35,434 nt of DNA, taken from assembly GCA_012729725.1 (NCBI GenBank), contig JAAYCO010000091.1, positions 1 through 35,434 on the forward strand, written 5' to 3'. Within the stretch, counting starts at the first letter, position 1. The number at the start of each line of letters is the position of its first letter. Under the pieces are notes generated by a model. That model was not told where the DNA came from and did no database searches. It saw nothing but the letters and a program-made list of their open reading frames with translations. Below, piece by piece: positions 18 to 22,454 of this stretch. The translations under genes and the position numbers were made by a program. The DNA comes from Planctomycetota bacterium (GTDB taxonomy: Bacteria; Planctomycetota; Phycisphaerae; SM23-33).

Positions 18-701
18 GATTCCGCGTCTTCGCAGACGCGGCCTCATTGAAGCCGATACAAGATGTATGCCTTGGCAGTCTGATGAAACTGGATTCCGCG
101 TCTTCGCAGACGCGGCCTCATTGAAGCTCCGACGCGCCCCACTGTGCGACGCCGGTAATCGCAGATTCCGCGTCTTCGCAGACGCGGCCTCATTGAAGCC
201 AGCATTGACAAGGGGGACAAATGAAGCCAACGCCAGGATTCCGCGTCTTCGCAGACGCGGCCTCATTGAAGCGTTGCAGCCGGAAGCGATGGCTACTGAG
301 CACGCATGGATTCCGCGTCTTCGCAGACGCGGCCTCATTGAAGCGTCGTTGGCCATACCGTAAACGTGGCGGTCGGGGTCGATTCCGCGTCTTCGCAGAC
401 GCGGCCTCATTGAAGCGAAGATGAGCAAGGTCGATATCGTCCCGGACTTCCGGGATTCCGCGTCTTCGCAGACGCGGCCTCATTGAAGCAATATGACGTT
501 GCCCGTAAGCCCGGCCAGGTTGTCGATTCCGCGTCTTCGCAGACGCGGCCTCATTGAAGCCGGGAAAGTGGATCGCCCGAATGATGCTGGTCACCGCGAT
601 TCCGCGTCTTCGCAGACGCGGCCTCATTGAAGCTAGTGGGTCATGATTTGCCTTCCTTGCCTATGTTGGGATTCCGCGTCTTCGCAGACGCGGCCTCATT
701 G
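18..701 (+). CRISPR. CRISPR array, 10 repeats of 36 bp, 9 spacers
   Basis: Identical 36-bp repeats begin at 18, 92, 164, 237, 309, 381, 454, 525 and 598. A tenth at 670 keeps its first 32 bases but loses the terminal AAGC. Spacers are 35-38 bp and mutually unrelated. Each repeat carries a perfect 8-bp stem (CCGCGTCT / AGACGCGG) around a TCGC loop and ends in ATTGAAGC, which resembles the 8-nt crRNA 5' handle of type I and type III systems. The degenerate last repeat marks the leader-distal end, so the leader, and probably the cas genes, lie to the left of the window and transcription should run rightwards. The 17 bases before the first repeat may be part of another spacer. The subtype cannot be told without cas genes. 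Confidence 0.97.
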
Positions 702-722
702 TGCTTCGACTTCGCTCAGCAC
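701..722. repeat. REP-like hairpin abutting the CRISPR array
   Basis: A 22-nt sequence with 5-bp ends (GTGCT / AGCAC) around TCGACTTCGCTC directly follows the truncated last CRISPR repeat. From memory, the core TTCGACTTCGCTCAG is a dispersed palindromic motif seen in many unrelated bacterial genomes. Only one copy was noticed in this window. The sequence from 723 to 850 holds no gene I can support. Confidence 0.45.
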
Positions 723-850: not shown

Positions 851-1645
851 TCAGAAGTAGATCACGTCGCGGATGCTATCGCCGCGAATGCGGACGGTTT
901 GGGAGTCGATGATCTCCGCGGCGGGATTCGTGGCGTAACCGTCTTTGAAGTGCGAATGAAAGAACCGCTTTTCCAGCACGAACGGCCCAGGCCAGACCAG
1001 CGGCTGGATCGGGTTCTTCTTGTGGTTTTGCACGGCTGTAACGGCGTCCTGGCGGATAAGCTGGTGCGATTTCTTCGCCGACAGCGAGATTGCGCTGTTC
1101 CGGCTGAGGCCCTTCTTTACGGCGGTGGTGGTTATGCCGGGGATCAACTCGCGGGCTTCGGCGCACGCGGCCTCGTCGCCGGTCAACCATATCAACGGCA
1201 TGCCGAACGAACCACAATGCAGCGCAAACTGGGCAATCTCGCCAATAGGCTTTCCGTTGAGCGTATAGCGATCCACCGCCCTGGACGCCTGCGTGTGGTT
1301 GAGGTTGCCGTCTTCAACGCCGGCCATGGCATGCTGGCCGATCATTATGGAGAAGTCGTAATCCTTTGTCGCCGCATCGCGGACCGACGCAGACGCCAGC
1401 GGACGCCCGTGCATCAGTTTCGCCTCGGGGTGAAGATTCTCAAATGAAACGGCGCCGGGCCCGTGGCCGTCCATGACGAGCACATCGTCAACCCCGGCTT
1501 CGAGCAGACCGTCAACGGCTGCGTTAATCTCGGCGGTCAGCAGCAACTTGGCCTGTTCGTAGTACTTGCCTTCGGGGTATGCCTGCGACTCAAAGCTCAC
1601 CACGCCCGCGACGCCCTCCAGATCAGTCATTACATATGCTTTCAT
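851..1645 (-). CDS. M55 family D-aminopeptidase (DppA-like)
   Basis: This 264-residue protein matches the zinc-dependent D-aminopeptidase family M55 (type member Bacillus DppA) in length and motifs. It opens with MTDLEG, giving the metal ligands Asp8 and Glu10. His61 (in MDGHGPG), His105 (in IGQHAMAG), His117 (in NHTQ) and Glu136 (in GKPIGEIAQ) fall where DppA has its remaining ligands and catalytic His. The family removes N-terminal D-amino acids from short peptides such as D-Ala-D-Ala and acts in the cytoplasm. No signal peptide is seen. It lies 14 bp downstream of an amidohydrolase gene on the same strand, so the two are probably cotranscribed. The true substrate is unknown; peptidoglycan-derived or dietary D-peptides are an inference. 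Confidence 0.9.
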   Translation of the reverse strand: MKAYVMTDLEGVAGVVSFESQAYPEGKYYEQAKLLLTAEINAAVDGLLEAGVDDVLVMDGHGPGAVSFENLHPEAKLMHGRPLASASVRDAATKDYDFSIMIGQHAMAGVEDGNLNHTQASRAVDRYTLNGKPIGEIAQFALHCGSFGMPLIWLTGDEAACAEARELIPGITTTAVKKGLSRNSAISLSAKKSHQLIRQDAVTAVQNHKKNPIQPLVWPGPFVLEKRFFHSHFKDGYATNPAAEIIDSQTVRIRGDSIRDVIYF

Positions 1646-1659
1646 GAGCCTTATGCCTC

Positions 1660-2541
1660 CTAGAGGCCAAGAATGCGAATGGCGTTGCCCCTGGCGATCT
1701 TGTCAAAAACGGTCTGCGATATCTCCCCGGCGTTCTTCAGTTCAAGCAGATAGTCCACCAGCGGCGTCGGTGTGGTCGGAGCACAGATGTCGGTGCCGAA
1801 GAACAGACGGTCCTGGAACTCGTTGAGGAATTTCACGCCATACTTGCGGTCGCGTTTGATGGCGTTGCAGCCGCTGCCGGCGGACAGGTCGCCGTATAGA
1901 TTCGAGTACCTGCGGAAGAACTTGGGCACCACGCCTTCGACGTCTATCGGGTTTTGCGGGTATCCGTATCGGTCTGCCGGGGTTTCAAGCACGCCCATTT
2001 CCGCCCAGAAAGTCTGCGAGTGCCCGAAGAATTTGAGCTTCGGGAACTTCTGAAGCGCCAGTTCGAGCTGGGGCAGGCCCGGCTCGTCATATAGGCCGTA
2101 GATTCCGCCGATCTGGGCGGCAAGGTGGAACGTCAGCGGCATGTCGGTATCCTGGCAGCATTTGAAGAGGTTCTGTACCCGCGGGTCGCTTATGGGAAGA
2201 TTGGTGCAGACCTCGCCAAGGCCCTTGCAGCCGAGCTTTTTGTAGTGCTCAAGCAGATGCCCCAGCGGCGCGTCGCTGGAATTCGTCATTGATCGCGGAT
2301 CAATGTTGCAGAAGGGGATGAACCTTCCTTCGTATTGCCGGGCGATGCGCACAATCTCCTCATTCGATTGAGGGACTATCGCGCATTCGGGTCCTATGCC
2401 CGGCAGCAGGACCGCCTTTTCAACGCCGATGGCGTCGTACCTTTCAATGAGCTGCTCCGGAGTGGTGTAAGGCATGGTTCCGTTGGGGCGCGTGGGCATC
2501 ATGTCCGCATATCGTGTGTGCACATGAATATCTATAAACAT
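1660..2541 (-). CDS. Amidohydrolase family (TIM-barrel) metal-dependent hydrolase
   Basis: The 293-residue protein has the layout of the amidohydrolase-2 family (PF04909). The HxH metal pair His6/His8 lies at the end of strand 1, with His139 (LTFHLA), His174 (FFGHSQ) and Asp251 (FFGTDIC) as the later ligands. Such enzymes hydrolyse or decarboxylate small carboxylic or amide substrates. It precedes the M55 peptidase gene by 14 bp, so the pair may act on one peptide or amide substrate. An AAAGGA ribosome site lies about 11 nt before the ATG. No signal peptide is visible. The exact reaction cannot be read from the sequence. Confidence 0.88.
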   Translation of the reverse strand: MFIDIHVHTRYADMMPTRPNGTMPYTTPEQLIERYDAIGVEKAVLLPGIGPECAIVPQSNEEIVRIARQYEGRFIPFCNIDPRSMTNSSDAPLGHLLEHYKKLGCKGLGEVCTNLPISDPRVQNLFKCCQDTDMPLTFHLAAQIGGIYGLYDEPGLPQLELALQKFPKLKFFGHSQTFWAEMGVLETPADRYGYPQNPIDVEGVVPKFFRRYSNLYGDLSAGSGCNAIKRDRKYGVKFLNEFQDRLFFGTDICAPTTPTPLVDYLLELKNAGEISQTVFDKIARGNAIRILGL

Positions 2542-10628: not shown

Positions 10629-11543
10629 TCAGGCCAACTTCTGCAAGGCAAAGAACCCGGCAGCGTCGAGCCGGTCGTGAAGGCGGCGATATTGCTCGTC
10701 ATCAAGGCTCCGCAGGGGAAGGCGCACGGGGCCGCAATCGACGCCGGACATCTTCATGATGGCCTTGCCCGCGGGAAGCCCGCCGTATTCGATCAACAGA
10801 TCGATGAACTCCACCGCCTTGGCCTGGTGTCGCCGCGCGTCGTCCATCCTCCCTGCGTCGAATGCCTCCATAACGCGGAGGTACACCGGGGCCGAGTAGT
10901 TGTACGTGCTGCCGACGGCGCCGCGAGCCCCCACCGCCAACGCGCTGAGCAGCGCCTCATCCCTGCCGAAAAGCACGTCATACCGCCCGCCGACGGCCGC
11001 CAGGGCCTGCGAATACTCCATCATGTTCTCATGCGTGAATTTCAATCCGCCAAGGTTGGCGATGCGCCCCGCAGCCGCGGTCAGCAGGCCGGGCATCGAA
11101 AAGTGCAGGCCCGTCAGTGAAGGGATGTGGTAGTAATAGAATGGGATATTCGGCGCTCCGCCGGCGACGGCTGCGCACCACTCCACCAGGTCCGCCAGGC
11201 ACGATGGGCGGAAGTAGCCGGGTCCGAAGGCGCCCGTCGCCGCCGCCCCAATCTCCTGGGCGTGTTGGGCCAGGGCCCGCGCGTCGGACAGGCAGTTGTG
11301 CCCAGTGTGCACGATGATGGTTAACTCGCTGCCGGCGACTTCGACCCAGCGCTGGGCGACAAGGCGACGCTCGTCCAGCGTCAGCGACAGCGACTCGCCC
11401 GTCGTCCCGCAAATGAACGCTCCTCGCACACCCGCTCGAACCAGGCCCTCTGCTTGTCGCTGTATGACGCTCAGGTCCAAACTGCCGTCCTGATGAAAGG
11501 CGGTGAAAGGCGCTGCGATCAATCCCTCTGTTTTGCGGCTCAT
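10629..11543 (-). CDS. N-acetylneuraminate lyase-like aldolase (DapA/NanA family)
   Basis: This 304-residue class I aldolase of the DHDPS/NAL superfamily has the GTTGES phosphate/carboxylate loop (46-51), the catalytic Tyr138 in FYYYHIP and the Schiff-base Lys168 in GGLKFTHEN. The motifs FGRDEALL and GAVGSTYNY favour N-acetylneuraminate lyase over dihydrodipicolinate synthase, because GAxGSTxN after a GxDE loop is typical of NanA. It would cleave a sialic or ulosonic acid to pyruvate and an amino sugar. It is divergent from a GntR/FCD regulator with matching operators in between, which supports an inducible catabolic role. No other sialic acid genes are in view, so related 2-keto-3-deoxy acid aldolase activities remain possible. 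Confidence 0.85.
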   Translation of the reverse strand: MSRKTEGLIAAPFTAFHQDGSLDLSVIQRQAEGLVRAGVRGAFICGTTGESLSLTLDERRLVAQRWVEVAGSELTIIVHTGHNCLSDARALAQHAQEIGAAATGAFGPGYFRPSCLADLVEWCAAVAGGAPNIPFYYYHIPSLTGLHFSMPGLLTAAAGRIANLGGLKFTHENMMEYSQALAAVGGRYDVLFGRDEALLSALAVGARGAVGSTYNYSAPVYLRVMEAFDAGRMDDARRHQAKAVEFIDLLIEYGGLPAGKAIMKMSGVDCGPVRLPLRSLDDEQYRRLHDRLDAAGFFALQKLA

Positions 11544-11590: not shown

Positions 11591-11658
11591 ACTGCCATCT
11601 ATTGGCGGCTTATGCAAGATAATCCCCGACATTTCCGGTATTTTCGTGCGCCTTGCGT

Positions 11659-11670
11659 CTTGCATACAAG
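11659..11670. promoter_or_regulatory. Operator-like palindrome for the GntR/FCD regulator (own promoter)
   Basis: CTTGCATACAAG differs at one base from the perfect palindrome at 11579. It directly abuts a -10-like TACAAT (11671-11676), which is 6 nt before the ATG of the regulator. A bound dimer would block RNA polymerase, so negative autoregulation is likely. Confidence 0.7.
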
Positions 11671-11682
11671 TACAATAGCGGC

Positions 11683-12465
11683 ATGAGCCTTAGCGCATTC
11701 GCCTATAAGTGCATCAAGGATAAGCTGCGGACCGGACGATTCCCGGGCGGAACCATGCTCTCTGAAACCACCCTCGCCCGCGAGATCGGCGCCAGCCGAA
11801 CCCCTGTTCGTGAAGCTATCGCCCAGTTGGAGCGGGAAGGCCTGCTGGACCAGATCCCCCGCCACGGCACGTTCGTCCGCGTGATGGACCGCGACGAGAT
11901 CGAAGAGCTTTACGACCTCCGCGCGACGCTCGAAGGATTCGCCGCTGCCCAGGCGGCGCGACACATCACGCCGGCGGTGGTGTACAAACTCCGCAACCAC
12001 TGCCGCGGAATGATGGACCTGGTCCGCGAGGTTCGCCGGCTCGGACCGAAGGCATCCATCGGGGCCGGGCTGGCACAACGCTGGGTGGCGAACGACGCAT
12101 CATTCCACACCACGATCATCCACGCTGCCGCGAACCGATGGCTGACCAAGGTCACAGAGGACATGCGCCTGATGGCCCAGACCTTCGGCCTGTGCCGCAA
12201 TCTGCCCGACAACAACCCATTGGCGACGCTGCGCCGCACATGGCGCGAGCACTGCCGACTGCTTGGGGCGCTGGCAGCCCACGACGAGCGGGCGGCGCGA
12301 GAACTCGTCATCGCACACATCCTCACGGGCAAAGAGAGCCTCCTGGCATACTGCGATTGGGCGGACAAGCATCGCGGCGAGCACGCTGGGCTTGACGAGC
12401 CGCGCCGCCGTCACCTGCAAAGCCTGGACCGTTACGCCCGAATCACCCGCGGGCGCAAACGCTGA
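11683..12465 (+). CDS. GntR family transcriptional regulator, FCD (FadR) subfamily
   Basis: The 260-residue protein has a GntR winged helix at about 1-70 (LSETTLAREIGASRTPVREAIAQLE is the canonical recognition segment; quoted part: ASRTPVREAI) and an all-helical FCD ligand-binding domain at about 80-225, starting at ELYDLRATLEGFAA and containing candidate metal ligands such as the FHTTIIHAA segment. I chose the ATG at 11683 rather than an upstream TTG at 11653, because the longer version would translate through the operator and the -10 hexamer. No Shine-Dalgarno precedes this ATG, so the mRNA may be leaderless. It is divergent from the NanA-like aldolase and is presumably its repressor, with the inducer a carboxylate sugar or pyruvate-like ligand. 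Confidence 0.93.
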   Translation: MSLSAFAYKCIKDKLRTGRFPGGTMLSETTLAREIGASRTPVREAIAQLEREGLLDQIPRHGTFVRVMDRDEIEELYDLRATLEGFAAAQAARHITPAVVYKLRNHCRGMMDLVREVRRLGPKASIGAGLAQRWVANDASFHTTIIHAAANRWLTKVTEDMRLMAQTFGLCRNLPDNNPLATLRRTWREHCRLLGALAAHDERAARELVIAHILTGKESLLAYCDWADKHRGEHAGLDEPRRRHLQSLDRYARITRGRKR

Positions 12466-12585: not shown

Positions 12586-13545
12586 TCATTCGGTGACCGT
12601 CAGCACGACCTTGCCCAGGTTCTCGTTGCGTTCCAGAATGGCATGTGCCTGCTGGGCCTGTGTGATCGGCAACGTCTTGTAGACAATGGATCGAAGCTTG
12701 CCGGATGCAAACGCGGGCCAGTACTCCTTTTCAAGACCAGCCAGTATTTGCGCCTTCATCTCCGACGATCGGCTGCGTAAGGTGCTGCCGATCAGTTTGA
12801 CTCCCCGCCTGAAGAAGGCATTCATATTCACGGTCGTTGTCGGGCCGCCCAAGGTGGCTATGACGATCCAGCGGCACCCATTCGCCGCCGTTTCAAGGTA
12901 ATTGCCCAGCTCAGGGCCGGCCACGCAATCCATGGCGACATCCGGGGGATGTCGCGCCAGCATGTCGACGACGTTGTCTCTCTTATGATTGATTATCACA
13001 TCGGCGCCAAGACTACCGACCAGAGCCGCCTTTTCATCCGAACCAATAGTGGTGACAACCTTTGCGCCAATCGCCTTGGCAAGTTGAATTGCCGCCACGC
13101 CCAGTCCGCTGGCGCCTGCCTGGATAAATGCGGTGTCGCCGGACTTAAGGCCGCCTTCCATGCAAAGATTGAGGTAGGACGTCGCAAATGCTTCGGGCGC
13201 CGCTGCCGCCTCTTCGAAAGAAAGGCCCTCGGGCACTGGCGCCACCATTCCCATGGGAACCGCCACTTTCTGGGCGTATCCCCCGCCGCCCAAAAGCGCG
13301 CAAACCTTGTCGCCGGGGCGCCACCTGCCGCCGGCCGGGGCCTGCAAAACAAAGCCTGCAACCTCAAGGCCCATCCACTCGGGCCAGCCCGGAGGCGGCG
13401 GATACTGTCCCGCTCGCTGCATCAGGTCGGCGCGGTTGAGAGCAGCAGCACGAACGTCAATAAGGACTTCACCCGGTTTGACAACCGGATCGGGCACGGG
13501 CGTCCAGTGCAGGCTGCGGTCTTCGGCAATGGTGATTGCGTACAT
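12586..13545 (-). CDS. Zinc-independent MDR quinone oxidoreductase, PIG3 type
   Basis: This 319-residue medium-chain dehydrogenase/reductase carries the PIG3/TP53I3 signature ALNRADLMQRAGQYPPPPG at about 34-52, the cofactor loop GASGLGVAAIQLAKAIGAKV near 143-162 and the family C-terminus HAILERNENLGKVVL. It lacks the structural zinc cysteine cluster of alcohol dehydrogenases. The family uses NADPH to reduce quinones or enones. It is the last gene of a four-gene minus-strand operon (5 bp after the AroD-like gene), so it may reduce an enone made by the upstream dehydratase. That substrate link is an inference from context. Confidence 0.9.
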   Translation of the reverse strand: MYAITIAEDRSLHWTPVPDPVVKPGEVLIDVRAAALNRADLMQRAGQYPPPPGWPEWMGLEVAGFVLQAPAGGRWRPGDKVCALLGGGGYAQKVAVPMGMVAPVPEGLSFEEAAAAPEAFATSYLNLCMEGGLKSGDTAFIQAGASGLGVAAIQLAKAIGAKVVTTIGSDEKAALVGSLGADVIINHKRDNVVDMLARHPPDVAMDCVAGPELGNYLETAANGCRWIVIATLGGPTTTVNMNAFFRRGVKLIGSTLRSRSSEMKAQILAGLEKEYWPAFASGKLRSIVYKTLPITQAQQAHAILERNENLGKVVLTVTE

Positions 13546-13550
13546 GCAGG

Positions 13551-14375
13551 CTATCCTATGTGATCATCAACGCGCCATTGCATGATGCGATAGAATTCTC
13601 GCAGGTCGCTCAGCAGCGGCTTGGCCATGTTGGAGTTTTCGTCGTACTCGTGATGCCCGAAGACAAGCATGGAACCAAGCAACGGGGCCAGCGGCCTGAT
13701 GAGCTGGCCGTGCGGTCCCGTGCAGATGTACACGAAGGGAACTCTGAGCGTCCGCTTCAGTTCCACCATCGTGCGAAGCATCTCGAGCGCGTGATCAACG
13801 CTGGGACAGGCGGTGACGATCTTGACAATGTCCGCGCCGCGGGATTCGATCTCGATCGCAAGTGCAACCGCCTGACTGCAATCAAGCGCCGCGCCGAGGC
13901 AGTGCGTTGACATCAGCACCTGCGCCCCCAGGGCATGGGCTTGTTCAATCGCCAGCTTCTGCTTTTCAATGCATTTGGGGCGCATGGAGATTTCCTCGGG
14001 ATTGGCCGCCCCGAACGGCAGCGGGCAATTCTTGAGGCTTCCGCGCGAGTCGGCGTCGAAAATATCGCCAGGCAGGTCGATGCAGGCGGCCCCCGCACGT
14101 GCCGCCTCAAGCAGTTTCGTGAGGCGATCTTCATCGGATGGGCCGTCTGGAACGCGGTAGTTGATCGCCATCACCGGATGCCTTGTCGCGGCGAAGATCT
14201 TGCTGAGTTCTGCTGCCTTGCGGCATTCATCGTCAAGCCTTTGGATATGCAGAATAAACGCCCTGGCGCCATCTTCCTGGCATGCTTTGATATCCGCTAT
14301 TGTCCTGGCCGTGGTTCGGTGGCGCAGCGAACCGACCAGCAGCGGGCGCGGCAAATCGGTGAATTTTGGTGTCAT
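13551..14375 (-). CDS. Type I 3-dehydroquinate dehydratase-like (AroD-like) enzyme
   Basis: The 274-residue TIM-barrel protein aligns to class I dehydroquinase. His158 (VLMSTHCLG) and Lys185 (ADIVKIVTA) match the catalytic His143/Lys170 of E. coli AroD. Arg227 (QLIRPLAP) matches Arg213, and Arg74 (INYRVPDG) matches Arg82. The conserved Glu46 of the strand-2 ExR motif appears to be Ile44 here (HIQRLD), and there is an extra loop of about 30 residues between Asp100 and Gln152 (the segment rich in Pro, Cys and Arg). It would form a Schiff base and dehydrate a 3-keto cyclic or sugar substrate. Because it is embedded between Gfo/Idh/MocA dehydrogenases and a reductase under a LacI regulator, I infer a catabolic rather than aromatic-biosynthesis role. 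Confidence 0.75.
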   Translation of the reverse strand: MTPKFTDLPRPLLVGSLRHRTTARTIADIKACQEDGARAFILHIQRLDDECRKAAELSKIFAATRHPVMAINYRVPDGPSDEDRLTKLLEAARAGAACIDLPGDIFDADSRGSLKNCPLPFGAANPEEISMRPKCIEKQKLAIEQAHALGAQVLMSTHCLGAALDCSQAVALAIEIESRGADIVKIVTACPSVDHALEMLRTMVELKRTLRVPFVYICTGPHGQLIRPLAPLLGSMLVFGHHEYDENSNMAKPLLSDLREFYRIMQWRVDDHIG

Positions 14376-14390
14376 CGCTTTCGCTCCTGC

Positions 14391-15431
14391 CTATGCCGTC
14401 GCATCTTTCCATTTCAGAAGCCCGCAAGAGGCCAGAAGAACCTCCTGCACCAGCTCGTCATGCTCATACGTGTATTTGTTATGGCCCTTGCCGCGGACCA
14501 ACTCGGCGAACTCCAGCAGTTGATCCTGGTAGCGGTCATGCGTAACGCCAAAGTCAACGACATGCGACCCGGCGGCGTATTCGCTGTTTCCCTGCAGCAA
14601 CACAAGCCGCATCTGGAGCGGCCGGCCGTCAAATCGCTCCAGCGGGCTCAGCTCGATCGCGCCTTTGGTTCCGCTGATCTTCATGCTTCGCCGGTTCACG
14701 CCGTCGATTTCCTTGCTGCACGCCCGCAACGTGGCCAGCGCGTGTGGATACTCCAGCACCGCCAGACAGTTGTTTCTGACGGCGCTACCGTATCCTGGCG
14801 CGGACTTGAGGAACGGAACGACATTCTCCGGCCTGCCCATAATCGAGACAATCAGGTCCACAAGATGGCAAGCGAGGTTGAACATGATGCCGCCTTGAAA
14901 GCGGCCGATGTATGCCTGATACGCCTCCGAGCCGTAGTTGTGGCTCATGTCGGCCTGGAACTCGAAAAGCTCTCCGAGCCAGTTGTCCCTGACCGCCCTG
15001 GCGGCGAATTGCATAGCTGGATTGTTGCGGAACATGTATCCCATCTGAAACACGAGATCGCGCTTGCGGCATCCCTCAAGCAGCCGCCGGAATGCGGCCA
15101 TGTCCTCCCCACCAGGCTTGTCCATATGTATGGACACGTTGTGCCGCATGCAGCGTAGCGCCGCCGGCACAAGATCGTCATTCGCCGTCTCTATAATCAC
15201 GGCCCCAAGACCGGGCGCATTGAGCAGTTCCTCTTCCGTCATCCACGTCAAATCTTCGTACGGTGTGAGGTCATCGCCGGCGAACCTGGCGACGGCGGTT
15301 GAACGATCATCGACAACGCCGACAATCTCAAACGTGTCCGCCAAACGCCTGAGCGTCTGCATCTTGGCGGCGGCGTGCTCGTGACAGATGCCGATCTGCC
15401 CGATCCTGATCCTGGTCGTACGCTTGCCCAT
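14391..15431 (-). CDS. Gfo/Idh/MocA family oxidoreductase (second of the operon)
   Basis: This is a 346-residue NAD(P)-dependent sugar or polyol dehydrogenase. The N-terminal Rossmann fold begins IRIGQIGICHEHAA, the family EKP motif is present as DKP (HMDKPGG), and the C-terminal domain includes the catalytic His in FNLACHLVDL. The start at 15431 is chosen because it directly precedes the Rossmann strand and lies 7 bp after the stop of the upstream gene. A longer frame to 15629 would overlap that gene by about 190 bp. It is followed after 15 bp by the AroD-like dehydratase. The family oxidises sugars or inositols to keto sugars, the type of substrate an AroD-like Schiff-base dehydratase could take. 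The substrate is unknown. Confidence 0.9.
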   Translation of the reverse strand: MGKRTTRIRIGQIGICHEHAAAKMQTLRRLADTFEIVGVVDDRSTAVARFAGDDLTPYEDLTWMTEEELLNAPGLGAVIIETANDDLVPAALRCMRHNVSIHMDKPGGEDMAAFRRLLEGCRKRDLVFQMGYMFRNNPAMQFAARAVRDNWLGELFEFQADMSHNYGSEAYQAYIGRFQGGIMFNLACHLVDLIVSIMGRPENVVPFLKSAPGYGSAVRNNCLAVLEYPHALATLRACSKEIDGVNRRSMKISGTKGAIELSPLERFDGRPLQMRLVLLQGNSEYAAGSHVVDFGVTHDRYQDQLLEFAELVRGKGHNKYTYEHDELVQEVLLASCGLLKWKDATA

Positions 15432-15438
15432 GCGAATC

Positions 15439-16509
15439 TCAGCCAATCCATGCGAACTGCGGGTTCTGTCGCTTGACAATTTCGGTAATCCGCACCACTT
15501 CCAGTGCATCTGAACTCTTGACCGGCATGGGAACCTGTTGGCGGATGGCGCGATAAAGGTGCCTGGCGATCTCGATTTCAACCTGAATCCACATGCTCGT
15601 ATCGGGTTCGACCTTGCGTGTTTCTTCAATCCAGGGCAATTCTTGTTCCGCGCTTACGGGCCGGCCCGGAGTGGGGCTGTCGGCCGCCGCCGTCGCCGCC
15701 TCCCATCGAAAAGCCGGAGCAAGATGCTTAAGGCGTATCTCTTTCTGGTCCTGCTCGTAGGTCAGCGCTCCGCGGTCGCCGTAGATTGTGCAGTACGGCC
15801 CGGCAATGGCGGCGGAATTGCTGATTTCCAGTTCGGCGACAGTATCGTTTTCGCCTACTAGCGTGATCTTGACGTGATCGTCGCCGTCGCCCGGCGTCAG
15901 GATTCGCCTGAGATAACTGTGCACGCTTCTGACCGGCGAGCCCAGAAGCACAAGGCCCTGATCGATAAGGTGCGGCCCCCACACGCTCAACTGTCCCCCG
16001 CCGCAGTCCAGCCTCATCTGCCAATCGTTGCGGCGCATAAATATGTGGTGCTTGCAGAGCTTGATCACGTTGATCCTGCCAAGCACACCCGACGCCACAA
16101 TCGCCTGAGCATTCATGAATGCAGGCTCAAAGCGGTGGTTGTGGCAGAAGTAGATCCGCTGGGGATACTTCTCAACAAGCTGCCGAAGCAGGGTGTAATC
16201 CTCCGCTGTTACGCCTATTGGTTTCTCCAGCAGCACAATCTTGCCTGCCGACAGAGCCTGGGCGGCGCTTCGGGCATGATCCAGAGAACGAGTGGCGATT
16301 ATGGCCAACTCTATTTCGGGGTCGGCAAGGAATGCGGCAAAATCGGCATACCCCTTGCAGCCGAATCTGGCGGCGGCAGCGGCTACTCTGTCGGCCGCGA
16401 TGTCACAAACGGCCTCGAGCTTGTACTGATTCGAATCATCCGAGAACCACCGGCAGTGTTCAATGCCAATCCGGCCGATGCCGCAGACTCCAAACTTGAT
16501 AGCGCTCAT
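15439..16509 (-). CDS. Gfo/Idh/MocA family oxidoreductase (first of the operon)
   Basis: The 356-residue protein has the Rossmann start FGVCGIGRIGIEH (6-18), an intact EKP motif at 95-97 (LLEKPIG) and the C-terminal catalytic region WGPHLIDQGLVLLG. It resembles myo-inositol 2-dehydrogenase and related glucose-fructose oxidoreductase-like enzymes. It heads a tight four-gene operon and has an AGAGG ribosome site about 8 nt before the ATG. It is divergent from a LacI regulator and has an operator-like site (16570-16582) 61 bp upstream. Two paralogous dehydrogenases in one operon suggest oxidation at one position and reduction at another, for example epimerisation or a keto-intermediate route. 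Confidence 0.92.
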   Translation of the reverse strand: MSAIKFGVCGIGRIGIEHCRWFSDDSNQYKLEAVCDIAADRVAAAAARFGCKGYADFAAFLADPEIELAIIATRSLDHARSAAQALSAGKIVLLEKPIGVTAEDYTLLRQLVEKYPQRIYFCHNHRFEPAFMNAQAIVASGVLGRINVIKLCKHHIFMRRNDWQMRLDCGGGQLSVWGPHLIDQGLVLLGSPVRSVHSYLRRILTPGDGDDHVKITLVGENDTVAELEISNSAAIAGPYCTIYGDRGALTYEQDQKEIRLKHLAPAFRWEAATAAADSPTPGRPVSAEQELPWIEETRKVEPDTSMWIQVEIEIARHLYRAIRQQVPMPVKSSDALEVVRITEIVKRQNPQFAWIG

Positions 16510-16569: not shown

Positions 16570-16582
16570 TGAAACGTTTGCA
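16570..16582. promoter_or_regulatory. LacI-type operator-like site upstream of the oxidoreductase operon
   Basis: On the minus strand it reads TGCAAACGTTTCA, a CG-centred imperfect palindrome containing the perfect AAACGTTT core, as is typical of LacI-family operators. It matches the site at 16685-16697 in 11 of 13 positions. The neighbouring LacI protein is the obvious candidate ligand. Confidence 0.6.
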
Positions 16583-16718: not shown

Positions 16719-17672
16719 ATGAGAATACAGGATATCGCAAGACTGGCAAAGGTTTCACCCGCCACTGTGTCGCGCGTGTTCAGCCATCATCCCAACATCA
16801 GGCAAGAGGTTCGCGAGCGTGTGATGTCCGTGGCCACGGCCCACGGATACCGCCCCCGATTGTCGGCCAAGCAGCGCAACGTCGTTCTCATTTTGCCCAG
16901 CGATCAGATCTACCCCATTCGCAACTGCCTGGAAATGGCGATGCTGGCGTTGACAACGGAGTTGCCTCGTCGCGGCCTGCGCATCGAAGTGCTGCCGCAG
17001 GACAACCTCGACAGGCTTGACAGCATTCAGTTCTGTGGGGCCGTGGCGATTGGCGCCGAACCGGATGACTTCACAACCTGGCCCAGCCGGTTCGCGTTGC
17101 CCCTCGTGCTGGTCGATCGAGATGCGCCCAAAGGATGCCGCAACGTGTATTCTGTGCGGTCGGATGAGGTGCAGGGCATGGACCTGGCGATCGGGCACAT
17201 GCACGAGCGGGGCTGTCGCAAGATCGGCTGCATCGTGCATGGCGAGAGCGGAAAGGGAAACGCCGACGCCCGCCGAGCCGCGATTATCCGGGCGTTAAAG
17301 AAGCGAGACTTGCCGGCGCACGACGCGATGATCCATCTTTCCGCCGACGACAACTACGTCGAGATCATCGGCAAGCTGCTGCGACAGGGTATCGACGCGA
17401 TCTTCTGTCCTGGCGGCAATGCCGGCATCGTCACCGCCTATGCCCTCTCGCTGTTCAACAAGCGGGTTCCTGACGAGATTTCCGTGATAGCATCGGAACA
17501 CAAGCAGTATTCGAGGTACGCCACGCCGTCACAGACAACCATCACGCAGGATCACGAGGCCCTGGCCAGGACCGTGGCGGACATCATCGAGTCGAGCCTG
17601 AAGAACGCCCCTGCCGATGAACAATATATCCTGCCCTACCAGTTGATCTCTCGCGACAGCGTGCGGCACTAA
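16719..17672 (+). CDS. LacI family transcriptional regulator
   Basis: The 317-residue protein begins with a canonical LacI helix-turn-helix and hinge (IQDIARLAKVSPATVSRVF, then VMSVATAHGYRPR), followed by a periplasmic-binding-protein-like sensor domain (about 58-317) with typical segments LVLVDRD, HMHERGCRKIGCI, RQGIDAIFCPGGN and VPDEISVIASEH. It is slightly shorter than LacI (about 340-360). It lies divergent from the Gfo/Idh/MocA-AroD operon and has matching operator-like sites in both promoter regions, so it most likely represses that operon in response to a sugar ligand. No ribosome site precedes the ATG. Downstream there is no cotranscribed gene. Confidence 0.94.
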   Translation: MRIQDIARLAKVSPATVSRVFSHHPNIRQEVRERVMSVATAHGYRPRLSAKQRNVVLILPSDQIYPIRNCLEMAMLALTTELPRRGLRIEVLPQDNLDRLDSIQFCGAVAIGAEPDDFTTWPSRFALPLVLVDRDAPKGCRNVYSVRSDEVQGMDLAIGHMHERGCRKIGCIVHGESGKGNADARRAAIIRALKKRDLPAHDAMIHLSADDNYVEIIGKLLRQGIDAIFCPGGNAGIVTAYALSLFNKRVPDEISVIASEHKQYSRYATPSQTTITQDHEALARTVADIIESSLKNAPADEQYILPYQLISRDSVRH

Positions 17673-19933: not shown

Positions 19934-22454
19934 ATGACACGTCACGTTCACCTGATATGCAACGCTCACCTTGATCCGGTGTGGCTTTGGGAATGGCCCG
20001 AAGGGGCGGCTGAGGCAATCTCGACCTTCCGGGTTGCCGTTGAGCTGTGCGAGAACAGCCACACTCTCGTGTTCAATCACAACGAGGCCGTCCTGTACGA
20101 ATGGGTGCGGCTGTACGATCCGTCGCTGTTCGACCGCATTCGCAAGCAGGTCCAGGCGGGCCGATGGCGTATCATGGGCGGGTGGTATCTTCAGCCCGAC
20201 TGCAACATGCCCAGCGGCGAATCATTCGTCCGCCTGATTCTGGCGGGTCGCGAGTACTTCGGGCGGCATTTCGGCGCCAGACCCACAGCCGCGATCAACT
20301 TCGACCCGTTTGGTCATTCCCGCGGACTGGTCCAGATCATGGCCAAATCTGGCTTTCGTTCGTACCTGTTCGGCCGGCCGCAACAGAGGCATTGTCAGCT
20401 TCCCGACGGCCCGTTCGTCTGGGTTGGATTCGACGGCTCCAGTGTGCTTGCCAGACGTTTCACCGGCTGGTACAGCACACCGCTTGGCAAAGGCCGCAAG
20501 ACGATCGAGGCCCGGATATCTCAATCGAACAATGATCCCGAGGCGATTTTGTGGGGAGTGGGCAACCACGGCGGCGGCCCAAGCCGCCAGGATGCACGCG
20601 ACATCGACGCCATGATCGCGCAGCGCGATGATGTTGAGATAATCCACTCGACGCCAGAAGCCTACTTCGCCGATGTCGAACGCTCGCAGCGTCCGCTTCC
20701 TCGTCATGAGGGAGATCTGAATCCCTGGGCGCCCGGCTGCTATACGTCAATGATGCGGGTCAAGCGAAAGCACCGCCAGCTTGAAAACGAGTTGTACCTG
20801 ACGGAGAAGCTCGCGTCATGTGCCGCCGCCAATGGGCTGATAACCTATCCGCGGGCGGACTTGGAATCGGCAGGCAAGGATCTGATGTTTGCCCAGTTCC
20901 ACGACATACTGCCCGGTTCGTGCAACGCTGCGGCCGAGGATGCGTCGCTGCGACTGATGGATCATGGGCTGGAGATTCTGGATCGGCTCCAAGGCGCGTG
21001 CCTTCTTCGCCATGACACGCACGCAGCGGCAGGCGCGCGAGGGGCATATACCCATCATTGTCGCAAATCCGCATCCTTACACGGTCGAAGACACCGTGGA
21101 GTGCGAATTCTGTCTGCCCGATCAGTGCAGCGACGGCACGTTCACCGATGTGACGGTGCTTGGCAACGGCAAGCCCATCGCCTCGCAGATCGAGCAACAG
21201 CATAGCAATCTGGCGCTTGATTGGCGAAAACGCATCGTGTTCAAGACAAGGCTTAAGCCTGGATCGGTCAGCCGATTCGACTGCACGCTGAAAGTCCTGA
21301 ATCGCAAGCCTGCCATTACGCGACGCCCCCGAAATGGATTCTACATATTCAAGAATGATATTCTTGACGTGCGAGTTAACGCAGCCACTGGCCTGGTTGA
21401 TCGCTATGCGGTGGCCGGCGTTAACTACCTTACCCAAGGGGCTTTCTGCCCGCTGGTGCTGCGTGATAATGAAGATCCATGGGAGGTTAGCGCCACTGCT
21501 TTCGGTCCTGTTGCGGGCAGGTTCCGGCTCATGGACAAGACCAAGGGCAGCCGCTTCAGCGGTTTGAAGAACACCATCGAGTCCGTGCGCGTGATCGAAG
21601 ATGGCGACGTGCGAACCGTTATCGAAGCGGTGCTGGCATATAAGGAATCGTTCATCTGCCAGAGATACGCCCTGCCGAAACAAGGCAGCGAGGTGATGGT
21701 GGAAACTCGAGTCCTGTGGAACCAGAAGAACAGCATGCTCAAACTGGAACTGCCGCTGGCCATCAACGCGAAGCGCTATCTCGGCCACACTGCCTTCGGG
21801 GTGCAAACCCTGCCGATGAACGGCACGGAGGCGGTCGCACAGAAATGGGTATGCGCCGCCGACGATGCCAATGGTCTGGGCCTGACGTGCATCAACGACG
21901 GCATTTACGGCTCGGACTGGTGCGGCAATTCCATTCGGCCGTCGCTGCTGCGAGCGCCTGCCTACAGCGCTCACCCGGTGGGCAATGCGCCAACGTGTCC
22001 GCCGGATCGCTTCAGCCCACGCATCGATCAGGGCGAGCACATCTTCCGGTTCTGGATCAACGCCGGGAACATCGATCAGCGACTGCGGGCGGTTTCGGCG
22101 GAGGCGCAGGTTAAGAACGAAAGACCGTACGCCCTGTCCTTCTTTCCCAAGGGGGACGGTTCTCAGCCGAAGCCGGTGGTCGTCCTCGACAACCAGGCCA
22201 TCGAGCTTTCCTGCTTGAAGCGGGCTCAGAATGACGACGGATGGGTGTTTCGGCTTTTCAACACTACCGATTGCAAGCAGTCCCTGCGGCTGAGATTGCC
22301 AATCGCCGGCGTGCGTTCCACATGCCGCTTCGGCCGATACGAGATCAAGACCTTCAGGCTCAACAGCGATGGCGTTCTCAGCGAAGTGAACCTGTTGGAG
22401 GAAGAAGCCCCCGATGCATGCATATATCATAACACAATGGCGGGCAAATCGTAA
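19934..22454 (+). pseudogene. GH38 alpha-mannosidase interrupted by a +1 frameshift
   Basis: Two overlapping frames together encode one glycoside hydrolase family 38 protein of about 839 residues. Frame 1 (from 19934) carries the catalytic domain: HLDPVW (His12 and Asp14, zinc ligands), the nucleophile Asp124 in INFDPFGHS, and AQFHDILPGS. The reading must move forward one base near 20993, where CTCCAAGGCGCG would become DRLQARAFF if one G were absent. Frame 2 then continues with IPIIVANPHPY and the beta-rich C-terminal domains to 22454. GH38 enzymes hydrolyse alpha-mannosides from glycans. No signal peptide is evident. Both halves are otherwise intact, so this is a recent mutation, a sequencing or assembly error, or less likely programmed frameshifting. 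The stop codon lies at the border of a repeat element. Confidence 0.85.

Follow-up and report, generated by a model that had tools for sequence, protein, structure and literature searches.

The contig JAAYCO010000091.1 of a Planctomycetota bacterium (assembly GCA_012729725.1), analysed here over positions 1 to 35,434 of its forward strand (the window, 35,434 nucleotides), carries a compact operon in which the gene of an AroD-like protein, a relative of type I dehydroquinases, stands among oxidoreductase genes (Table 1). Behind a divergent lacI gene follow, in order, two Gfo/Idh/MocA dehydrogenase genes (GFO1 and GFO2), the AroD-like gene and a PIG3-family gene, with intergenic gaps of 7, 15 and 5 bases. 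A first-pass annotation of the window had already placed the AroD-like gene between two Gfo/Idh genes and PIG3; the interval it gave, 13551-16509, omits both PIG3 (12586-13545) and the LacI gene (16719-17672). PF01408 and PF22725 score above cut-off in both GFO1 and GFO2, and the window PIG3 is the sole TIGR02824 match above cut-off among the 10 listed for its genome. The closest solved relatives of GFO2 are a glucuronide-3-dehydrogenase (8tdi, at only 49.5 bits) and DgpA2, the latter also matched by GFO1. In family-model searches the operon proteins of the window match no quinate or shikimate dehydrogenase model. Nor did these proteins or two neighbours match a metal-dependent lyase or hydratase family, a search that did not extend to the genome.

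Table 1 Features of the operon and of the rest of the window
Feature	Position	Strand	Remark
AroD-like protein, 274 aa, type I dehydroquinase fold	13551..14375	-	H158, K185 and R227 kept; equivalents of E46 and R48 are I41 and H43
Gfo/Idh/MocA dehydrogenase 1 (GFO1)	15439..16509	-	
Gfo/Idh/MocA dehydrogenase 2 (GFO2)	14391..15431	-	Start codon taken at 15431
PIG3-family quinone/enone oxidoreductase	12586..13545	-	TIGR02824 351 bits, cut-off 296.8
LacI-family regulator, divergent from operon	16719..17672	+	
Proposed LacI operator TGCAAACGTTTCA	16570..16582	-	In the lacI-operon gap; pattern derived from such sites
NanA-type lyase	10629..11543	-	Directly adjoins operon, with the next gene
GntR/FCD regulator	11653..12465	+	Divergent from the NanA-type gene
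CRISPR-like array	18..705		At contig edge
Peptidase M55 (D-aminopeptidase) gene and adjoining Amidohydro_2 gene	851..2541	-	
GH38 alpha-mannosidase, split	19934..22454	+	38N and middle domain 19934..21205; 38C 20964..22454

The AroD-like gene is an uninterrupted open reading frame of 274 codons. Its product scores 62.8 bits against the Pfam family DHquinase_I (PF01487; cut-off 22.2) and 42.6 bits against the aroD equivalog TIGR01093, far under the cut-off of 139.3. An AlphaFold2 model built with 60 aligned rows as input has a mean predicted local distance difference test score (pLDDT) of 90.8, with values below 50 at residues 113-123. When this model is compared with solved structures, dehydroquinases take the first 41 places among the 50 chains listed, at Z 19.7-25.4 and 14-21% sequence identity, the best of them type I enzymes; IspG comes next, at Z 16.9.

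Residue equivalences rest on profile alignment with 2gpt, the Arabidopsis enzyme, and on a joint alignment of AroD-like and canonical rows, in which the 61 AroD-like rows include the window protein and that of locus L121. In dehydroquinase crystal structures, according to the excerpts of PMC9902378, the substrate carboxylate is held by R213 and Q236 and the C4 and C5 hydroxyls by E46, R48 and R82. The catalytic His143 and Lys170 align with H158 and K185, the pair recognised in the first-pass annotation, and are kept in 61/61 rows, as are Asp114 (D100) and Arg213 (R227). Glu46 and Arg48 correspond to I41 and H43 in the window protein and occur in none of the 61 rows. The replacement of Glu46 had been seen before, with Ile44 named in place of Ile41; the loss of Arg48 adds to it. 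Position 41 is Ala in 32 rows, Cys in 10, Thr in 9, Gly in 8 and Ile in 2, and position 43 is Asp in 27, Glu in 24, His in 3 and another residue in 7. That Glu46 and Arg48 belong to the canonical enzyme is taken from the excerpts of PMC9902378 and the alignment to 2gpt; their presence in 7/7 canonical rows follows by construction from a filter motif that includes both positions and is not evidence. The equivalence of R74 to Arg82 likewise rests on the alignment to 2gpt, the canonical rows of the joint alignment being off by one at Arg82.

Four further residues, D104, E128, Q139 and R179, are invariant in 61/61 AroD-like rows. In the AlphaFold2 model D104 and E128 are located between strand 4 and the following helix, a region that would form the catalytic end of such a barrel. 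An extra loop of about 30 residues, claimed previously, holds against the Salmonella enzyme: the span between the equivalents of Asp114 and His143 (D100 to H158) covers 58 positions in the window protein and L121, 42 in the other 59 AroD-like rows, 20 to 38 in the 7 canonical rows from the search loci and 29 in Salmonella numbering. Taken with the residue roles given above, this conservation means that the protein retains the Schiff-base pair together with the carboxylate arginine and that the reading of the hydroxyls has been rebuilt. Retention of the Arg213 equivalent suggests that the substrate bears a carboxylate, which in dehydroquinate sits on the carbon losing the oxygen. The protein thus has the AroD fold and catalytic pair but lacks the hydroxyl-binding residues and the equivalog score, for which reasons it should not be named AroD.

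A biosynthetic role of the AroD-like gene was ruled out by a canonical AroD-AroE fusion encoded on another contig of the same genome (144.9 bits). The fusion and the low TIGR01093 score together support the conclusion that the AroD-like protein is not the biosynthetic dehydroquinase, in agreement with the earlier proposal of a role outside biosynthesis; the refutation named for that proposal combined absence of any other dehydroquinase from the genome with efficient turnover of dehydroquinate, and its first part does not apply. The same situation is found more widely, with another dehydroquinase in 17 of the 20 genomes holding an AroD-like gene. A type II enzyme is present in 12/20, and 5/20 have a type I enzyme of at least 144.9 bits, compared with at most 80.2 bits for the AroD-like copies.

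The distribution of the AroD-like gene is patchy. Matches at E 2.2e-29 or better occur in 4/392 genomes of a phylum sample and the gene in 5/100 of a sample of relatives, own genome included in both cases; it is present in 0/34 other genomes of the own family within those relatives and in 6/397 genomes of a class sample (profile, E 1e-30). A contig scan yielded 60 AroD-like loci, many from Lentisphaeria or Victivallales, and among them Victivallis vadensis DSM 14823, Geminisphaera colitermitum TAV2, Kiritimatiellae, Planctomycetota, one Spirochaetes metagenome-assembled genome (MAG), two Clostridia-labelled MAGs and two Bacteroidota, one of them Membranihabitans maritimus. Alignment A2 comprises the window protein, L024 and 58 of these 60 loci, leaving out L082 as short and L084 as an outlier. 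In a tree of 68 rows, with long branches flagged, the 7 canonical rows (L007 and L011 not among them) fall on one side of a branch with support 100/100, and the window protein and L121 group together (100/97) beside the other 59 AroD-like rows.

Gene order is conserved beyond the window, as a check suggested earlier had asked: in genome G764, from another family of the class, a divergent lacI gene is followed by a medium-chain dehydrogenase/reductase (MDR) gene, GFO1, GFO2, the AroD-like gene and PIG3, and the AroD-like proteins of the two operons are 69% identical. Because the arrangement recurs in other genomes, it is more than chance. Counted on the same strand within 5 kb at 200 bits or more, the neighbours at 62 AroD-like loci are PIG3 (29), GFO2 (24), two short-chain dehydrogenase/reductase (SDR) families, SDR8 (18) and SDR3 (16), an epimerase-like protein (15), MDR (12) and GFO1 (5), and LacI is found at 400 bits or more, on either strand, in 11/62. 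Of the 38 loci whose flanks reach 3 kb or more on each side, at least one same-strand operon-type oxidoreductase is present in 29, at least two in 24 and at least three in 20. The operon profiles were built from the same loci that were then counted, such that these counts measure recurrence and canonical aroD loci serve as the control; there, operon-type oxidoreductases accompany 0/9 loci, four of which have less than 2.5 kb on one side. Judged from these sequence comparisons, recruitment of a dehydroquinase relative from biosynthesis into a dehydrogenase operon is well supported, and to the proposition that the AroD-like gene is a specialised type I dehydroquinase branch working in catabolism, with the mechanism set out below, we give about even weight.

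Several loci depart from the operon of the window in ways of their own. L054, L056, L058, L059 and L083 form a stand-alone subgroup with recurring neighbours of their own and no operon oxidoreductases. In the Lentisphaeria loci L036, L039 and L045 the SDR8 and AroD-like genes lie in line behind a D-aminoacylase-type protein (named by eye). The AroD-like proteins of the two Bacteroidota (L073, 9818-10771; L065, 643-1629) begin with a twin-arginine-like export leader, also recognised by eye. At L073 the second gene upstream encodes a glucose/sorbosone-dehydrogenase-type protein that includes a cytochrome c domain, a GH29 fucosidase lies downstream, and at this one locus an oxidising enzyme is again found near the AroD-like gene.

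The gene set fits a sequence in which a ketone is formed by oxidation, an elimination follows through a Schiff base and the enone is reduced, with both the chemistry and the order of the reactions predicted. Most likely, the AroD-like protein would be a beta-eliminase of the Schiff-base type whose keto acid substrate comes from a Gfo/Idh enzyme, with PIG3 reducing the enone. Starting from a sugar or cyclitol that bears a carboxylate, a Gfo/Idh enzyme would turn one hydroxyl into the ketone, with which Lys185 of the AroD-like protein would form a Schiff base. His158 would then help to remove the adjacent proton and expel the beta-oxygen, Arg227 would hold the carboxylate as its counterpart does in dehydroquinase, and PIG3 would reduce the resulting enone. 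An acidic sugar is weakly favoured as the substrate, since the informative neighbours at L077, L060, L050 and in the window hint at sugar acids. The L077 cluster continues into a PfkB kinase, whose nearest models, KDG and KDGal kinases among them, stay under their cut-offs (410.4 vs 700; 184.6 vs 440), and into a KDPGal aldolase, which passes its cut-off of 207 with 224.5 bits. At L060, UxaC and UxaE lie downstream and the opposite strand carries a KDPG aldolase, and downstream of L050 come a DHDPS-family protein and a dehydratase of sugar-acid type. The window contributes the NanA-type lyase beside its operon. No neighbour specific to inositol or quinate was found among the AroD-like loci. 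Inositol was considered and set aside, as the best NCBIfam match of the MDR family, IolM, reaches only 89.2 bits (cut-off 450). A wider picture is possible, if doubtful: a dehydroquinase lineage may have given rise to a metal-free Schiff-base eliminase for keto sugar acids, in a hitherto undescribed pathway that oxidises, eliminates and then reduces the enone and that extends across Planctomycetota, Lentisphaerota, Verrucomicrobiota, Kiritimatiellota, Spirochaetota and Bacillota, and the putatively exported Bacteroidota form may partner a periplasmic sugar dehydrogenase instead of Gfo/Idh enzymes.

Other uses of the same active site have to be weighed against such an eliminase. The family barrel and its lysine chemistry are common to class I aldolases, and the Schiff base might serve carbon-carbon cleavage rather than elimination, with the invariant D104 and E128 in the loop after strand 4 as its new residues; the dehydroquinase set of His, Lys and Arg is nonetheless complete and the neighbouring enone-type reductase is better matched to an elimination product, which makes cleavage very improbable. 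A quinate-type substrate, with the enzyme removing water from a ketone formed from quinate or another cyclohexane carboxylic acid and PIG3 and SDR enzymes reducing the ring further, we regard as quite improbable. Although the Lys/His/Arg site is kept and some SDR neighbours match, among many other models and below cut-off, those of cyclohexanecarboxylate dehydrogenases, LacI and Gfo/Idh partners are more usual for sugar genes and, as stated above, the operon proteins match no quinate or shikimate dehydrogenase model. Furthermore, Glu46 and Arg48, which read the C4 and C5 hydroxyls of dehydroquinate in the excerpts of PMC9902378, are lost in 61/61 rows.

Two alternatives draw instead on known chemistry of Gfo/Idh enzymes. 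If these made a 3-keto glycoside or glycuronide, the AroD-like enzyme could cleave the glycosidic bond through beta-elimination at C1, as a metal-free parallel to 3-keto-glycoside lyases; the excerpts of PMC13273386 treat as established a route that oxidises the glycoside and then beta-eliminates from its 3-keto form, and the nearness of GFO2 to 8tdi and DgpA2 and the match of GFO1 to DgpA2 point the same way. These matches are weak, however, the known route as given there hydrates its product without a reduction and leaves PIG3 unexplained, and the carboxylate arginine would not lie beside C1 of a glycuronide bound as in dehydroquinase, so that we consider keto-glycoside cleavage unlikely. 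The least probable of these alternatives is elimination of the C2 oxygen from 4-keto derivatives of sialic acid or 3-deoxy-D-manno-octulosonic acid (KDO). Such derivatives share with 3-dehydroquinate the relation of carboxylate, leaving oxygen, CH2 and ketone, and the Gfo/Idh enzyme RgNanOx oxidises C4 of 2,7-anhydro-N-acetylneuraminic acid (2,7-anhydro-Neu5Ac) via 4-keto-DANA in the excerpts of PMC7535918, where it requires no separate eliminase. The NanA-type lyase gene that adjoins the window operon scores 258 bits to 5afd but stays under the NCBIfam cut-offs and has its own divergent GntR gene, and L121 has no counterpart beside it.

Several observations weigh against the AroD-like protein acting as an eliminase on keto acids of sugars, a reading that concerns an activity and a substrate predicted by comparison. 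PIG3 enzymes are not all enone reductases. R227 is kept in 61/61 rows, but its partner in the carboxylate site, Gln236, is K252 in the window protein and L121, with Gln in 57/61. Three of the 20 genomes (those of L050, L060 and L032) show no other dehydroquinase in their available sequence, and 9 of the 38 flanked loci (L035, L044, L054, L056, L058, L059, L073, L081 and L083) have no operon-type oxidoreductase. The sugar-acid neighbours weigh little, because they are confined to 4/62 loci and differ from each other. With no NanA-type gene beside the related operon of L121, a NanA link was also dropped as a general rule.

As for regulation, the LacI-family gene is divergent and recurrent. The LacI control named in the first-pass annotation is a prediction, in which the LacI protein would control the operon through the site at 16570-16582. 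The starts of the LacI proteins are highly similar between loci, and a motif search in 17 gaps finds TGCAAATGAAGCA-like sites in many, not all, of them; L121 has TGCAAATGTTTCA in the corresponding lacI-operon gap. TGCAAAYGTTTCA occurs once each in genomes G000 and G764 and its reversed pattern 0 times, and the wider pattern TGCAAAYGWWKCA is expected 0.01 times in the window. These counts support TGCAAACGTTTCA-type sites as a putative local operator, with the patterns built from the sites they describe and so providing no independent test. A Lentisphaeria operator pattern has 38 matches in 12 genomes vs 4 for the reversed pattern. Of the 38 matches, 30 were recovered as loci; those outside operons revealed no coherent gene set when a transporter or hydrolase regulon was sought.

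Elsewhere in the window, a 36-base repeat is present 10 times in the CRISPR-like array, at intervals of 71-74 bases, with the last copy degenerate at its end. The GH38 alpha-mannosidase is split over two overlapping frames by a frameshift, reflecting a genuine gene break or a mistake in the assembly.

Textbooks treat type I dehydroquinase as a biosynthetic enzyme, and a branch with the same lysine chemistry and a rebuilt pocket, in many cases encoded next to dehydrogenases, offers a testable case of passage from aromatic biosynthesis to catabolism. If this holds, genes scored by Pfam as 'dehydroquinase' may have another identity where the bacterium already possesses one, and the operon could reveal use of acidic sugars by little-known gut, rumen and digester bacteria. 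Among the papers that searches of the PMC open subset listed, to which subscription papers do not belong, none describes such a dehydroquinase relative in a catabolic operon in its title or the start of its abstract.

Among known systems, type I AroD (PF01487, TIGR01093) shares with the window protein the fold, the catalytic His and Lys and the equivalents of Asp114 and Arg213. The window protein differs in lacking Glu46 and Arg48, in the extra residues after strand 4, in falling under the aroD equivalog cut-off, in the Lys that replaces Gln236 in its lineage and in the placement of its gene in an operon with dehydrogenases. Pathways of 3-keto-glycoside oxidation and elimination were reportedly described by Nasseri et al. 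in 2024. As in those of 8tdi and DgpA, Gfo/Idh oxidation followed by beta-elimination is proposed here; the known C-glycoside lyase depends on a divalent metal and its product is hydrated, according to the excerpts of PMC13273386, whereas the route proposed for the window would rely on a Schiff-base enzyme together with an enone-type reductase. RgNanOx and YjhC, which handle anhydro-sialic acid, offer a further parallel in Gfo/Idh oxidation to a 4-ketone beside a carbon with carboxylate and leaving oxygen, followed by elimination; in the excerpts of PMC7535918 one enzyme oxidises, eliminates, hydrates and reduces, and no AroD-like partner is described in them.

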